From assembly GCF_007754425.1 (NCBI RefSeq), contig NZ_CP037452.1, positions 1,583,501 to 1,647,500 on the forward strand: DNA of 64,000 bases, written 5' to 3'. The notes beneath the pieces are model-generated. The model saw only the letters and a program-made list of their open reading frames with translations. It made no database searches and was not told the DNA's origin. Positions 3,695 through 9,316 of this stretch are shown here, piece after piece; positions within the stretch are counted from its first letter, which is position 1, and the number at the start of each line of letters is the position of its first letter. The position numbers and the translations under genes are program-made. Source of the stretch: Gimesia fumaroli. GTDB taxonomy: Bacteria > Planctomycetota > Planctomycetia > Planctomycetales > Planctomycetaceae.

Positions 3695-5167
3695 CTATTG
3701 GGGTTCGCAACACTGGAGAATCGGATGACGTGCCGCCACAACTTCATCCGGTCTGCTGATCGCGGTGCTATGCGGCGCCTGGTGTAAATATTCCGGATCT
3801 TCCTGAAGGATTTTCCGAATCGTTTCGGCAAACGCGTCCAATGTTTCTTTCGATTCTGTTTCCGTTGGTTCGACCATGATGGCTTCAGGTACTACCAGTG
3901 GAAAATAAACGGTGGGGGCATGGAAACCAAAGTCGAGTAGACGCTTGGCGATATCCATTGCCGTGACCCCATTTTCGGCTTTGATTTTTGACGCTGACGC
4001 GACGAACTCATGCATGCACAGGTCGCCGTTAGGAACAGGTAGCACATCCTTCAAAATTGCCTTGAGGTAGTTGGCATTCAGAACCGCGTTTTCTGAGACA
4101 GCTTTCAAGCCTTTAGCTCCCAGCGTTCTCAGATAACAGTAGCCTCGTACCACAATTCCAATATTGCCGTAAAAGGTGCGGACGCGTCCAATGGATTTGG
4201 GAGGGTTTTCCAGCGTGTATTGGTCTCCATTTTCCCCCGCATTTTCATTGCGTTTGATGACGGGACCAGGCAGGAAGTCAGACAGAAAATCACGCACAGC
4301 GATGGGGCCTGAACCGGGGCCGCCGGCACCATGTGGACCGGTGAAGGTTTTATGAACGTTGTAATGCATCATGTCGCCGCCAAAATCACCGGGGCGCGTA
4401 TAGCCGAGAATAGCGTTCATGTTTGCGCCGTCGATATAAACGAGTCCGCCGACTTCGTGAACCATGTCTGCGATTTGTTTAATGTCTTTTTCGAACAGTC
4501 CCAGTGTATTGGGGTTTGTGACCATGAAGACGGCGGTCTGGTCATCCAGGTTGGCTTTGAGGTCTTCCAGGTCGACGAGTCCGGCTTTACTGCTTGCCAG
4601 TTGCACACAGTCGAATCCGGCAATCGCGGCACTGGCGGGGTTTGTTCCATGTGCACTGTTAGGGAATAGAACTTTGGTCCGTTTTTCGCCTCGATCTTCA
4701 AAGTAGGCTTTGGCCGTCAAGAGTGCTGTAAATTCACCTTGGGCACCAGCGGCAGGTTGTAGTGACACCGCAGGCAGGCCTGAAATTTCCGCCAGCATTT
4801 CCTGTGTCTCATAAAGCAACGCCAGCATACCTTGCAGGTCAGACGGATTTTGATAAGGATGCAAGTCGACAATTCCCGGCAGGCTCGCCAGCCGCTCGTG
4901 CCGTTTGGGATTGTACTTCATCGTACAGCTTCCCAGCGGGTAAAAGTGGGTATCGACACACATGTTTAATGTCGACAGATTGACGAAATGCCGGATGATG
5001 TCAGGTTCGGTAACTTCGGGAAGTCCCGTGGGTTCTATCGCCAGCGCAGCTGTGGGAAGCAGTTCATTCAGCGGTTTGACAGGGACGTCCGCTTCGGGAA
5101 GCTCGGCACCGCGCCGGCCGGGTTGAGAGAGAGCAAACAATGATTCGGTGGCCAATTGATTTCGCAT
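3695..5167 (-). CDS. gcvPB: Glycine dehydrogenase (decarboxylating) subunit 2
   Basis: This is the C-terminal half of the split P-protein of the glycine cleavage system, which decarboxylates glycine with PLP and passes the aminomethyl group to lipoyl-GcvH. The 490 residues include the SLQPAAGAQGE stretch (~135-145), PNSAHGTNPASA (~169-180) and the PLP-lysine motif NVHKTFTGPHG with Lys273. Length fits the bacterial subunit 2. It lies 66 bases downstream of gcvPA and upstream of the lipoate-ligase gene on the same strand. The PLP lysine and the glycine-rich loop (GAGGPGSG) are both intact. Confidence 0.97.
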   Translation of the reverse strand: MRNQLATESLFALSQPGRRGAELPEADVPVKPLNELLPTAALAIEPTGLPEVTEPDIIRHFVNLSTLNMCVDTHFYPLGSCTMKYNPKRHERLASLPGIVDLHPYQNPSDLQGMLALLYETQEMLAEISGLPAVSLQPAAGAQGEFTALLTAKAYFEDRGEKRTKVLFPNSAHGTNPASAAIAGFDCVQLASSKAGLVDLEDLKANLDDQTAVFMVTNPNTLGLFEKDIKQIADMVHEVGGLVYIDGANMNAILGYTRPGDFGGDMMHYNVHKTFTGPHGAGGPGSGPIAVRDFLSDFLPGPVIKRNENAGENGDQYTLENPPKSIGRVRTFYGNIGIVVRGYCYLRTLGAKGLKAVSENAVLNANYLKAILKDVLPVPNGDLCMHEFVASASKIKAENGVTAMDIAKRLLDFGFHAPTVYFPLVVPEAIMVEPTETESKETLDAFAETIRKILQEDPEYLHQAPHSTAISRPDEVVAARHPILQCCEPQ

Positions 5168-5233
5168 GGTATTGGTTGTTGCTTCGAAATATCTGGACTA
5201 AGTGAAACGCATTAAGGTATTTAAAAAGCGGAG

Positions 5234-6589
5234 CTACGCTTTGAGGGCCGTCACCAGACGGTCGATTTCTTCCCTTGTTCTTTGTTCTGTGATCGCGACA
5301 AGGACACCGGTCTGGTCAGCGCCAGAGCCGTCTGTCCATTCAAAGCGTGAGAGTTCCGGTCCCAGGTCAAAGCCGGCCTGACGTGCCTTGCGGAGCAGGT
5401 AATCCGCTCCCTCTGAACAGCTTAAAACAAATTCTTTGAAGAAGGCACGTTCCGGGAAGGGGAGTTGGAGGCCTTCGATCTGAGCAAGTTGTTCGGCTGC
5501 ATAGTGCGCTTTCTGACAGCAAAGCTCTGCAACTTCACGAATGCCCTGCTTTCCGAGCAGAGCGAGATAAACGGCGGCGCGAATCGCGATCAGTCCCTGA
5601 TTACTGCAGATATTACTGGTGGCTTTATCGCGACGAATATGTTGTTCGCGAGCCTGCAGATTTAATACATAACAGCGTTTTCCATTGCGGTCGACCGTTT
5701 GACCGATCAGACGACCGGGCATTCTGCGGACAAACTTTTCACTGCAGGAAAACAGTCCGAGATACGGGCCGCCAAATTGCAGAGGGGTTCCCAGAGATTG
5801 CCCTTCCGCGATGGCGATGTCAGCACCATAATCACCGGGACGTTTTAAAATTCCGAGACTGATCGGATCATAGGACACAACAGACAAGGCGCCATATTTG
5901 TGTGCAATTTCCGTCAGTTGTTCTGCTTCTTCCAGAGTCCCAAAGAAGTTGGGGTGCTGGATGACGAGGCATGCAGTCTGATCGTTCATCGCCGCATCAA
6001 CGTCGGCCGGATCGACTGATCCATTGACACAGGGAACCACGACCACTTCACAGTTTAAGTGTTTCAAATAGGTTTCTACGACCTGTCTGTATTCCGGATG
6101 CAGCGACCCGAGTAATACAACTCGATCGTGACGATTGGTGACCCGCATCGCCATGAAGGCGGCTTCGCTGACGCAGGTGCCTCCTTCGTACAGGCTGGCA
6201 TTGGAAACATCCATGCCGGTTAACTGGCAGATTAGCGATTGGAATTCGAAGAAGGTCTGCAGGCTGCCTTGGCTGGCTTCCGCCTGATACGGTGTGTAGG
6301 CGGTATAAAATTCGCCTCTACGGGCAATTTCATCGACAGCAGCCGGAATGAAGTGATCATAAGCTCCGCCGCCCAGCATACAAACACGAGAGCCCGGTCC
6401 GACATTGTCTGCTGCCAGCTTCGAGACGTGTGCCTGCAGCTCCATTTCGGTTAAGGCAGGGGGGACATTCAGTGGGCGATCCAGACGCAGCTCTTGTGGG
6501 ATGTTAGAAAATAAATCTTCCGTAGAGTCAACGCCGATGGCTTGCAGCATTTCCTGCTGCTGTTCTGATGTGTTAAAGAGGTAAGGCAC
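5234..6589 (-). CDS. gcvPA: Glycine dehydrogenase (decarboxylating) subunit 1
   Basis: This 451-residue protein is the N-terminal half of the split P-protein. Typical features are the opening PYLFNTSEQQQEMLQAIGV, the GGGAYDHFIPA motif (~74-84), YTPYQAEASQGSLQ (~95-108) and the SNICSNQGL segment (~325-333). Together with subunit 2 it forms the PLP-dependent glycine decarboxylase. The start is GTG at 6589, the family-typical N-terminus. It sits between gcvH (166 bases upstream) and gcvPB (66 bases downstream), consistent with an operon. No gcvT is present in the window. Confidence 0.97.
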   Translation of the reverse strand: MPYLFNTSEQQQEMLQAIGVDSTEDLFSNIPQELRLDRPLNVPPALTEMELQAHVSKLAADNVGPGSRVCMLGGGAYDHFIPAAVDEIARRGEFYTAYTPYQAEASQGSLQTFFEFQSLICQLTGMDVSNASLYEGGTCVSEAAFMAMRVTNRHDRVVLLGSLHPEYRQVVETYLKHLNCEVVVVPCVNGSVDPADVDAAMNDQTACLVIQHPNFFGTLEEAEQLTEIAHKYGALSVVSYDPISLGILKRPGDYGADIAIAEGQSLGTPLQFGGPYLGLFSCSEKFVRRMPGRLIGQTVDRNGKRCYVLNLQAREQHIRRDKATSNICSNQGLIAIRAAVYLALLGKQGIREVAELCCQKAHYAAEQLAQIEGLQLPFPERAFFKEFVLSCSEGADYLLRKARQAGFDLGPELSRFEWTDGSGADQTGVLVAITEQRTREEIDRLVTALKA

Positions 6590-6755
6590 GGTTCACTCGC
6601 TAATAAGCGTGATATTGAGGACGTTGTGATTCAACTGTTTTGATTATAGTCACGGGAGAGACGTTGGAACTCTCTTTTTACCGTTATTTCGAACGCAGCA
6701 GGAATTTATCGCATGCCGCAGTCTGAACACCCGAAAATCTTGAGCCGGGCTTCAT

Positions 6756-7142
6756 TTAGTGGGCTTCCGACTCACAGAATTTCTGGTACTCGTCAGCATT
6801 CATAAACTGATCTAACTCTGATGGATTTGACATTTTGACTTTTGTGATCCAACCAGCGCCGAAGGGATCGTCTGAAAGTGGTGCCTGATCATCAACAAGT
6901 GCCGCATTAACTTCAGCAATTTCTCCGCTGACCGGAGAATATAAATCACTAACGGCTTTCACACTTTCTACTTCGCCGAACACTTTGCCGGCTTCGCAGT
7001 TCGAGCCAACTTCTGGAAGTTCAATGTAAACCAGATCGGTTAATTGATTGACGGCAAAATCGGTGATCCCCACGGTTGCCGTCTCGCCATCAACGTTGAC
7101 CCATTCGTGAGTTTTGGTGAATTTTAAGTTGCCCTGATCCAT
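6756..7142 (-). CDS. gcvH: Glycine cleavage system H protein
   Basis: At 128 residues this matches GcvH. The lipoylation motif GEVESVKAVSDLYSP (about residues 55-69) contains the Lys that carries lipoate, and the N-terminus (FTKTHEWVNVDGETATVGIT) is typical. GcvH shuttles the aminomethyl intermediate between P-, T- and L-proteins. It heads the gcvH-gcvPA-gcvPB-ligase set, so carrier, decarboxylase and a probable lipoylating enzyme are encoded together. The 297 bases upstream probably hold its promoter. Confidence 0.97.
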   Translation of the reverse strand: MDQGNLKFTKTHEWVNVDGETATVGITDFAVNQLTDLVYIELPEVGSNCEAGKVFGEVESVKAVSDLYSPVSGEIAEVNAALVDDQAPLSDDPFGAGWITKVKMSNPSELDQFMNADEYQKFCESEAH

Positions 7143-7439: not shown

Positions 7440-7895
7440 CTAGTGAGGTGGCATGTTTTCTTCTTCGACTTTGTTCAATTTTTCCAGTCGGCGGGCGTGT
7501 CTGCCACCTTCAAACTCTTCTTTCAGCCAGATTTCAATCATCCGATTGACGAGTCGATCGCCGAGCAGGTCCGCAGACAGGCAGAGCACATTCGAATTAT
7601 TATGCAGGCGGCTCATTTGTGCGGTGATATCGTCATGGCAGGGAGTTGCTCGCACGCCGGGGAACTTGTTGGCGACAATACACATTCCCATTCCGGTACC
7701 ACAAATCAGAATACCGCGGTCGATGGATTTATCAGTGATGGCTTTCGCCACTTTGATTGCATAGTCCGGGTAATCCACACTTTCTCCGTCTTCAGGACCG
7801 TAATCAAACGCTTCATGTCCCAATTGTTTTAAAAGTGTGAGGATTTTGACCTTGGTTGCAAACCCTCGGTGATCACTGGCAACTGCAATTTTCAT
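7440..7895 (-). CDS. rpiB: Ribose-5-phosphate isomerase B
   Basis: The 151-residue product begins MKIAVASDHRGF and contains DYPDYA, GILICGTGMGMCIVANKFPGVRA (the catalytic-Cys loop) and HNNSNVLCLSADL, all characteristic of RpiB/LacAB isomerases. The enzyme interconverts ribose-5-phosphate and ribulose-5-phosphate in the pentose phosphate pathway. The frame is open 31 codons upstream, but the ATG at 7895 gives the family N-terminus and is preferred. It follows the YrdC-like/phosphatase fusion on the same strand, the same neighbourhood as ywlC-ywlE-ywlF in Bacillus. Confidence 0.95.
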   Translation of the reverse strand: MKIAVASDHRGFATKVKILTLLKQLGHEAFDYGPEDGESVDYPDYAIKVAKAITDKSIDRGILICGTGMGMCIVANKFPGVRATPCHDDITAQMSRLHNNSNVLCLSADLLGDRLVNRMIEIWLKEEFEGGRHARRLEKLNKVEEENMPPH

Positions 7896-8206: not shown

Positions 8207-9316
8207 CTATTTCCCGGGAACATTGATCTGAGAAATAATCGTCTTCAGATATTTCTCAATTTCTTTTTTGCATTCAACATAGCATTGAAAGCCTCCCCCG
8301 ATCGGATCCGAAACGTCTTTTCCTTCGGGAGAAAGCAGCCTTACGGACGACTCCAGATCGGGGCGTTCCGCCAGAATGGCAGCACGGTGGCCTTGGGTCA
8401 TTATATAAAGATAGTCTGCCTGCTCAAGTAAACGTTCTGTGAGAGGCTGACTTTCGTGGGCCTGAATATCAATTCCCTGTTCAGCAAGGATGGTCACGCC
8501 TTCTGGGCTGGGGGGAGCCCCCATAGCTGCTGCCAGGCCCGCAGAACCAACAATAAAACCGTGATCTGATAATTCATCTTCCTGACAGCCAAGCTTATTA
8601 GAAAGCATTTTGCGGAATAAGCCTTCGGCCATGGGACTGCGGCAGGTGTTACCTGTGCAGACAAACATATAGATTTCGCTGGATAGTCTTTTCAAGGTAG
8701 TTTCCGTTACGACGCCTGGTTGAAGGATGCTCCATTGATTGTCGGTAATAGAGATAATGGTAGATTGATCGCCAAACCGGGAAGGGCCATCGTCAATAAT
8801 CAGTGCGACCTGGTCCTCAAAATCTTCCATGAGGGCATCTGCGGTCTGATATTTTGATTGTTCATTCAGCAGGACCAGCGGTGAAGGCGAGAGCCGTAAA
8901 GTCTGGTAAATGATTTCATGCGCGGGGGCCCGTAGACGGATACGATCTCCCGGACAAATCAGCGATTGCACTTCTTCTGGTAATTGAGAGAACAGACTGT
9001 CCGGACCGGGGCGATCCATATCCATGACAACAGGACCCGGCCAACAGCGTTTTGCCAGTTTTCGCCCGATAGGGGGCATATCCGGCAGATAATCCAGTGC
9101 TTCATCAAAGCCTTTAACACACAGGACCAATGGTTCATCCGTCTGGGAAAACGCACGCAGACTCGACATAGCCGAGGTACTAAGAGACTGACCTGCAATC
9201 ACATACGCTGTAGCGGTCGGAAAAGCGACTAACCCGCCTTTTGCCAGGTATTGCACTGCCAGGTGAATCACATCGCGGATATCGTCAGTCTGTTTTAGAT
9301 TGATCCGTTCGGTCAT
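8207..9316 (-). CDS. YrdC/Sua5-like domain fused to LMW protein phosphatase
   Basis: The 369-residue protein has two parts. Residues ~8-205 resemble YrdC/Sua5 (GGLVAFPTATAY, RCWPGPV, PGDRIRLRAP, DDGPS). Several hallmark positions differ: the FPTETVYGLG loop reads FPTATAYVIA, the KGRPxxxPL segment reads FSQTDEPLVL, and the SAN(x)SG loop reads LLNEQSKYQT. This half may therefore not make threonylcarbamoyl-AMP. Residues ~214-365 form a low-molecular-weight phosphatase with the P-loop CTGNTCRS (Cys220, Arg226) and the general-acid DP at Asp337. Thr224 matches the residue that gives Bacillus YwlE its phosphoarginine preference. The ATG at 9316 is chosen; the frame is open 18 codons further. rpiB follows. 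Confidence 0.9.
   Translation of the reverse strand: MTERINLKQTDDIRDVIHLAVQYLAKGGLVAFPTATAYVIAGQSLSTSAMSSLRAFSQTDEPLVLCVKGFDEALDYLPDMPPIGRKLAKRCWPGPVVMDMDRPGPDSLFSQLPEEVQSLICPGDRIRLRAPAHEIIYQTLRLSPSPLVLLNEQSKYQTADALMEDFEDQVALIIDDGPSRFGDQSTIISITDNQWSILQPGVVTETTLKRLSSEIYMFVCTGNTCRSPMAEGLFRKMLSNKLGCQEDELSDHGFIVGSAGLAAAMGAPPSPEGVTILAEQGIDIQAHESQPLTERLLEQADYLYIMTQGHRAAILAERPDLESSVRLLSPEGKDVSDPIGGGFQCYVECKKEIEKYLKTIISQINVPGK

Follow-up and report, generated by a model that had tools for sequence, protein, structure and literature searches.

A TsaC-YwlE-type fusion protein in Gimesia and other Planctomycetota, with its TsaC site lost only in lineages that carry a stand-alone Sua5

An open reading frame of Gimesia fumaroli that joins a domain of the TsaC/Sua5 (TC-AMP synthase) family to a phosphatase resembling the arginine phosphatase YwlE raises the question of how two such proteins came to share a gene and what each half still does. 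The account that we consider likely as a whole is that neighbours of a tsaC-ywlE cluster were fused, that a separate Sua5 took over from a TsaC half that has since decayed in Gimesia, and that the other half would act as a phosphoarginine phosphatase.

The fused gene, its spread and its neighbours

In the window, by which we mean the whole 64,000-nucleotide stretch that was analysed, the fused gene occupies 8207..9316 on the minus strand and encodes 369 amino acids between an ATG at 9316 and a stop at 8207. Five close relatives, three of which bear the name Gimesia, share the ATG and the TERI that follows it, which makes a TTG start that would extend the frame to 9370 the less likely one. The preliminary description read the frame as a YrdC domain fused to a phosphatase, and Pfam bears this out with two models that both exceed their cut-offs in the one frame: PF01300 for a YrdC/TsaC-like domain at residues 23-201 (8714..9250, minus strand, E 2.3e-21) and PF01451 for an LMWPc domain at residues 217-358 (8243..8668, minus strand, E 6.9e-24). 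Among solved structures, the N-terminal half is matched best by Sua5 chains and the C-terminal half by YwlE chains (E 2.5e-19). Structure prediction from six sequences, the fusion itself and the five close relatives, returned a useless model with a mean pLDDT of 39.7. Promoter-like and terminator-like sites near the gene were not clearly more frequent than in shuffled sequence (6 versus 3.5, sd 1.8, and 1 versus 2.1).

The spread of the fusion was followed in 149 Planctomycetota genomes, many of them incomplete assemblies. Matches to PF01451 were found in 139 of these genomes, to PF00217 (the arginine-kinase family) in 141, to PF01300 in 142 and to the window protein, whole or in part, in 131. 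Two-domain fusions, counted where the match runs from before residue 90 to past residue 330, are in hand for 98 of the 149, about two thirds, so that related genomes do hold both things that the earlier reading would expect of them, the fusion and the kinase family. Three more fusions, in G065, G134 and G090, are cut by contig ends and stand outside the 98; in G134, which has a Sua5-type match, the contig ends ahead of the SxN site. A contig scan with short patterns from the decayed protein confirmed five Gimesia-like loci.

Downstream of the fusion lies rpiB (ribose-5-phosphate isomerase B; 7440..7895, minus strand, PF02502 at 8.4e-54), whose probable ATG at 7895 is about 310 bases away on the same strand. 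This is the gene that the earlier description placed there, and the synteny is frequent in the family: at 63 of 101 fused loci (the 98 and the three cut by contig ends) rpiB is downstream on the same strand, at one it is downstream on the opposite strand and at one it is upstream; no rpiB was seen at 32 loci whose 3' flank is 1 kb or longer, nor at four where it is shorter. We take it that ywlC (Sua5), ywlE (arginine phosphatase) and ywlF (RpiB) adjoin in Bacillus. Of 110 matching records of a plasmid collection, three reach a query coverage of at least 80%, in every case split over two pieces, and in one of the three, from Acetoanaerobium (Bacillota), the pieces are separate adjoining genes within a run of three consecutive separate genes, sua5, ywlE and rpiB. 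This unfused order, together with the rpiB synteny, supports the view that adjoining genes of an old cluster were fused. Past rpiB, the minus strand of the window carries at 3695-7142 what are presumably the glycine cleavage P-protein subunits and the H-protein. A 432-aa ORF in another genome (L205, G126:C96), in which a TsaC domain is joined straight to RpiB with no phosphatase between them, is a different rearrangement of the sua5-ywlE-rpiB cluster.

Loss and retention of the TsaC site

The catalytic set given for Pa-Sua5 in the part of PMC10321239 used here consists of KxR and SxN for ATP and of T33, S181 and R195 for threonine. In the family alignment, the YrdC half of the window protein is missing KxR, carries N151/Q153 in the columns of S143/N145 and has R195 replaced by Q199, and it keeps the equivalents of T33 (T34) and S181 (S185). 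Pairwise alignment instead places N145 opposite an Asn and S143 opposite a gap, so SxN is broken under either alignment. The suggestion that this half had changed at its ATP and threonine sites is therefore upheld by an alignment in which three of those elements are gone and two remain. Against the TIGR00057 model the window fusion scores 84.9 bits, under the cut-off of 123.2. A second, intact Sua5, which the earlier description had proposed to look for, is present elsewhere in the genome with its SUA5 domain and 209.3 bits for TIGR00057, and a third YrdC-domain frame is a 788-aa open frame of HypF-like length.

Degeneracy does not extend to the family. The term holds for the window protein, but SxN is kept in 82 of the 98 fusions, and a blanket description of the YrdC half as degenerate was rejected in favour of decay confined to some lineages. 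The TsaC positions are intact in 93 (T34), 85 (S151), 83 (N153), 92 (S185) and 88 (R199) of the 98. Aligned SxN columns served as the measure of decay; a strict text match to KxR was dropped because it fails on shifted forms (17 of the 80 Sua5-less fusions) and, judged by eye, matches by accident in G048 and G069. By this measure SxN has been lost in 16 of the 98 fusions, and a stand-alone Sua5 is found in all 16 of those genomes. Conversely, SxN is retained in every one of the 80 fusion genomes in which the PF01300 matches listed and a re-search gave no ordinary second TsaC/Sua5. Only two of the 82 genomes that keep SxN, G115 and G031, have a Sua5 among the PF01300 matches listed. The fusion of G115 keeps SxN and failed the KxR text match, and its sister G146 has lost SxN; G031 has a Sua5 alongside an intact fusion.

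Stand-alone Sua5 status was read by hand among the PF01300 matches listed, and all 28 Sua5-less fusion genomes with more than one such match were re-searched in full. The other 52 of the 80 have a single PF01300 match among those listed. In 21 of the 28, a match of HypF length (756-947 aa) stands beside the fusion, with a weak 640-aa match as well in G019; of the remaining seven, six show no more than a weak match, in a frame of 600-690 aa, and G140 has a weak 243-aa match (E 2.8e-8). No Sua5 was found in these 80 genomes, which leaves the fusion as the sole ordinary candidate for t6A synthase found in them, in a sample with many incomplete assemblies. Of six SxN-bearing fusions scored with TIGR00057, five pass its cut-off (152.7-180.7 bits) and the sixth, from G066, scores 109.5; the decayed fusion of G054 scores 94.7 and that of G087 gives no match at E 1e-6. 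The fusion is thus probably the tRNA-t6A (TC-AMP) synthase of many planctomycetes, and in Gimesia-like bacteria the t6A job has probably passed from the fusion to Sua5.

How often this happened depends on the tree. A tree built from only the phosphatase half, many forks of which are poorly supported, requires at least seven changes for the loss of SxN. The well-supported branches yield four independent decay/Sua5 pairs, of which three agree, none goes against and one is a tie (p 0.25), so that the repeated pattern, once relatedness is allowed for, is suggestive and not formally significant. Close contrasts include the sisters G054 (Sua5, decayed) and G125 (no Sua5, intact), G052/G072 and G027, and the window's own family and G121 of the same class. 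In a tree of YrdC domains, from which G073 was left out for its missing N-terminus although it is counted in the 98, 20 of the 26 stand-alone TsaC/Sua5 proteins included form one starred clade, which takes in the Sua5 of the window genome and of all 18 Sua5-bearing fusion genomes. The window's YrdC half clusters with its own family and the intact G121 (96*), and this separate placement indicates that the fused domain was not copied from the resident Sua5. A stand-alone TsaC in a 265-aa frame of G061 (L204) falls within the branches of the fused domains at support 82, a place that would fit a former fusion that came apart or whose phosphatase disappeared.

If Sua5 now does the work, the decayed half could be a relic with no role beyond folding that is heading for loss. 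We regard this as an unlikely reading of some substance. YrdC-half branches in the decayed G052 and G072 are about 0.44-0.47 long versus 0.083 in their intact sister G027, with no such speed-up in the phosphatase halves of the three (0.18-0.25); the YrdC domain of G087 has fallen under its Pfam cut-off; and the replacements at the lost sites differ between decayed lineages. The TsaC half of Gimesia is also somewhat less constrained than the phosphatase half, with a median pN/pS within Gimesia of 0.18 versus 0.13. In addition, persistence of the N-terminal half is in part a product of how the set was chosen, since a fusion without it would fall outside the 98. What stands against a relic is that the YrdC profile of the family, built with the decayed fusions included, still recognises all 16 of them, and that dN/dS of the decayed half in Gimesia-like genomes is far below 1, at 0.04-0.13 where computable (0.03-0.15 in the phosphatase half), although silent sites are close to saturated in many pairs. 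For the decayed half, the pairs with the least saturation (L013/L014, L077/L078 and L012/L015) give 0.055, 0.104 and 0.077. The idea that this half is free of constraint in Gimesia was rejected on these values. The TsaC half of Gimesia is a pseudoenzyme domain under purifying selection, slightly less constrained than its partner.

The phosphatase half and the arginine-phosphorylation genes

The C-terminal half carries the P-loop CTGNTCRS at residues 220-227 (8636..8659, minus strand), which fits the pattern C(X)4CR(S/T), and Thr224, encoded at 8645..8647 on the minus strand, sits at the position called PX5. In the part of PMC8001253 used here, Thr at PX5 steers YwlE and PtpB to phosphoarginine and Ile steers to phosphotyrosine. 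The earlier reading of Thr224 at the arginine-phosphatase position follows directly from the protein, in which Cys220, Thr224, Arg226 and the general-acid loop Asp337-Pro338 (8303..8308, minus strand; common to all 98 fusions) are all present. The tyrosine-type signature of Ile at PX5 with a DPY loop is absent from the window fusion, which has Thr224 and DPI. On these grounds, phosphoarginine is probably the substrate.

An ordinary tyrosine or small-phosphate phosphatase in which Thr224 is incidental would be the competing reading. Across the 98 fusions the PX5 residue is Thr in 69, Ser in 14, Leu in six, Ile in five, Arg in three and Met in one, so the arginine-type signature is not uniform; the 15 fusions with Leu, Ile, Arg or Met mean that the site tolerates tyrosine-type residues, and four of the 69 with Thr have a tyrosine-type DPY loop. 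The window loop, however, is DPI, the best solved matches of this half are YwlE, and the 30 LMWPc loci with the highest scores, a choice that biases the contrast to classical members, include 25 unfused LMW phosphatases, which have Ile (24) or Leu (1) at PX5 and, in 22 cases, DPY. We therefore judge an ordinary phosphatase improbable and continue with phosphoarginine as the probable substrate.

The search of the genome for a McsB-type arginine kinase proposed in the preliminary description was successful. The only PF00217 match in the window genome is a 354-aa protein at C1:6022698-6023762, which scores 465.2 against a cut-off of 385 for the 'protein arginine kinase' model NF002194, misses a second and stricter NCBI model, NF053707 (396.9 versus 500), and aligns with solved McsB over residues 11-347. 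Near C1:3.16 Mb, a 189-aa ORF with CxxC motifs and a UVR motif is McsA-like, at 102.2 bits against a curated cut-off of 210 and aligned over nearly the whole McsA model, and near C1:7.42 Mb there is a ClpC-type ATPase in which the Clp_N repeat occurs twice, together with a UVR motif. Two other LMWPc genes, which we take to be arsC-like (one of 139 aa, the other interrupted by a stop), lie at C1:5450600-5454200 beside genes that we take to be arsR-like and arsenite-permease-like. Since these two sit in an arsenic-type cluster, no other evident candidate for a YwlE than the fusion is left in the genome; its own score against the ArsC equivalog TIGR02691 is 41.5 bits, below the cut-off of 174.3. 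The B. subtilis genome used as a control gave no PF00217 (McsB) or PF02861 (Clp_N) signal, although B. subtilis carries both mcsB and clpC, the genes worked with in PMC7546277; these two controls say little, as the region may be missing from the control copy or masked in it.

In the wider sample, the McsB models were applied to the protein of the window genome, and elsewhere the kinase stands for a PF00217 family match. Such a match occurs in 96 of the 98 fusion genomes versus 45 of the 51 others (p 0.02), a co-occurrence that discriminates weakly because 141 of the 149 genomes have one. All ten genomes with no LMWPc match still carry a PF00217 match. Three nearly complete genomes of family f43 (G070, G088 and G106) combine the McsB family and a stand-alone TsaC with no LMWPc match, that is, an arginine kinase with no evident phosphatase of the LMWPc fold. 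In family f11, members with CTGNTCRS and no TsaC domain were found in all six genomes examined. At three f11 loci, L181 (G009), L192 (G097) and L193 (G129), a YwlE-type CTGNTCRS phosphatase forms the N-terminus of ORFs of 344-369 aa, the remainder of which is DUF4202 in G009, and each of the three genomes has one PF01300 match among the matches listed, which is stand-alone.

A proposed role and comparison with known systems

The substrate, the place in a pathway and the function of the pseudo-domain are what we infer in the following scheme. An ancestral sua5/tsaC-ywlE-rpiB cluster would have had its tsaC and ywlE joined into one gene, so that in many planctomycetes one product would combine TC-AMP synthesis with YwlE-type dephosphorylation of protein arginines. 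In a Gimesia-like genome, the separate Sua5 would make TC-AMP, leaving a fused TsaC half that has no ATP site as a pseudoenzyme domain. McsB, with McsA, would mark protein arginines, ClpC would read the mark, and the C-terminal half would remove phosphoarginine and rescue proteins from ClpC-ClpP degradation. The chemistry would be the usual two steps of LMW phosphatases, with a phosphocysteine intermediate on Cys220 and Asp337 as the general acid. That the window's YrdC half instead continues to make TC-AMP, or serves some other catalytic purpose, is very improbable despite T34, S185 and purifying selection, given the absence of KxR, SxN and R195 equivalents, which mutational work in yeast Sua5 found to be required (cited in PMC10321239, in the part used here), the sub-threshold TIGR00057 score and the full Sua5 elsewhere in the genome.

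A more specific role for the fusion is suggested by analogy. TsaD is the next enzyme of t6A synthesis after TsaC and is encoded in the window genome (413.5 bits). The TsaD of B. subtilis carries a phosphorylated arginine, R282, and is stabilised against ClpCP by YwlE, according to the part of PMC7546277 used here. The fusion might therefore couple arginine dephosphorylation to t6A physically, with the TsaC or pseudo-TsaC half docking and the YwlE half protecting TsaD, a speculation that we rate as rather doubtful. A phosphatase borne on TsaC would sit where TsaD protection is needed and would strip McsB phosphoarginine from TsaD, shielding tRNA modification from ClpC-ClpP; the pseudo-TsaC half would have been retained as a docking or regulatory module after Sua5 took over catalysis. 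The TsaD of the window genome presumably has an Arg at the place of R282, within a widely conserved motif.

A search of the open-access literature found no description of a TsaC-YwlE fusion, which is weak evidence of absence. The part of PMC4395418 used here has McsB in its reference list only and Planctomycetes in a list of taxon abbreviations only, and the literature on protein-arginine phosphorylation, in the portions used here, concerns mainly Gram-positive bacteria. The 141 of 149 sampled genomes suggest that a non-Gram-positive phylum carries the arginine-kinase family. That the TsaC site has been lost solely in the presence of a second Sua5 offers a natural experiment on the origin of pseudoenzymes. 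For annotation, a 'TC-AMP synthase' or 'tyrosine phosphatase' label may be wrong for one half of such a fusion. A connection of arginine phosphorylation with tRNA modification, as proposed here, is directly testable in cultivable Gimesia and relatives.

The component parts are already known, and what appears to be new is the fusion, its spread and its repeated decay. YwlE and PtpB of Bacillota share with the window fusion CTGNTCRS, Thr at PX5 and an Asp-Pro loop, but they do not stand behind a TsaC-like domain and their loop reads DPFG rather than DPIG. The TsaC/Sua5 synthases are homologous through PF01300, and most other fusions keep their catalytic residues, whereas the window protein has lost KxR, SxN and the threonine-site Arg and has a phosphatase in place of the SUA5 domain. 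The McsA-McsB-ClpC system has its McsB, McsA-like and ClpC genes in the window genome, but they are dispersed. The TsaC paralogue YciO, like the TsaC-like domain here, is thought to have a role distinct from t6A synthesis; unlike that domain, which has lost its active-site residues and is fused, YciO keeps them, as described in the part of PMC12506659 used here.
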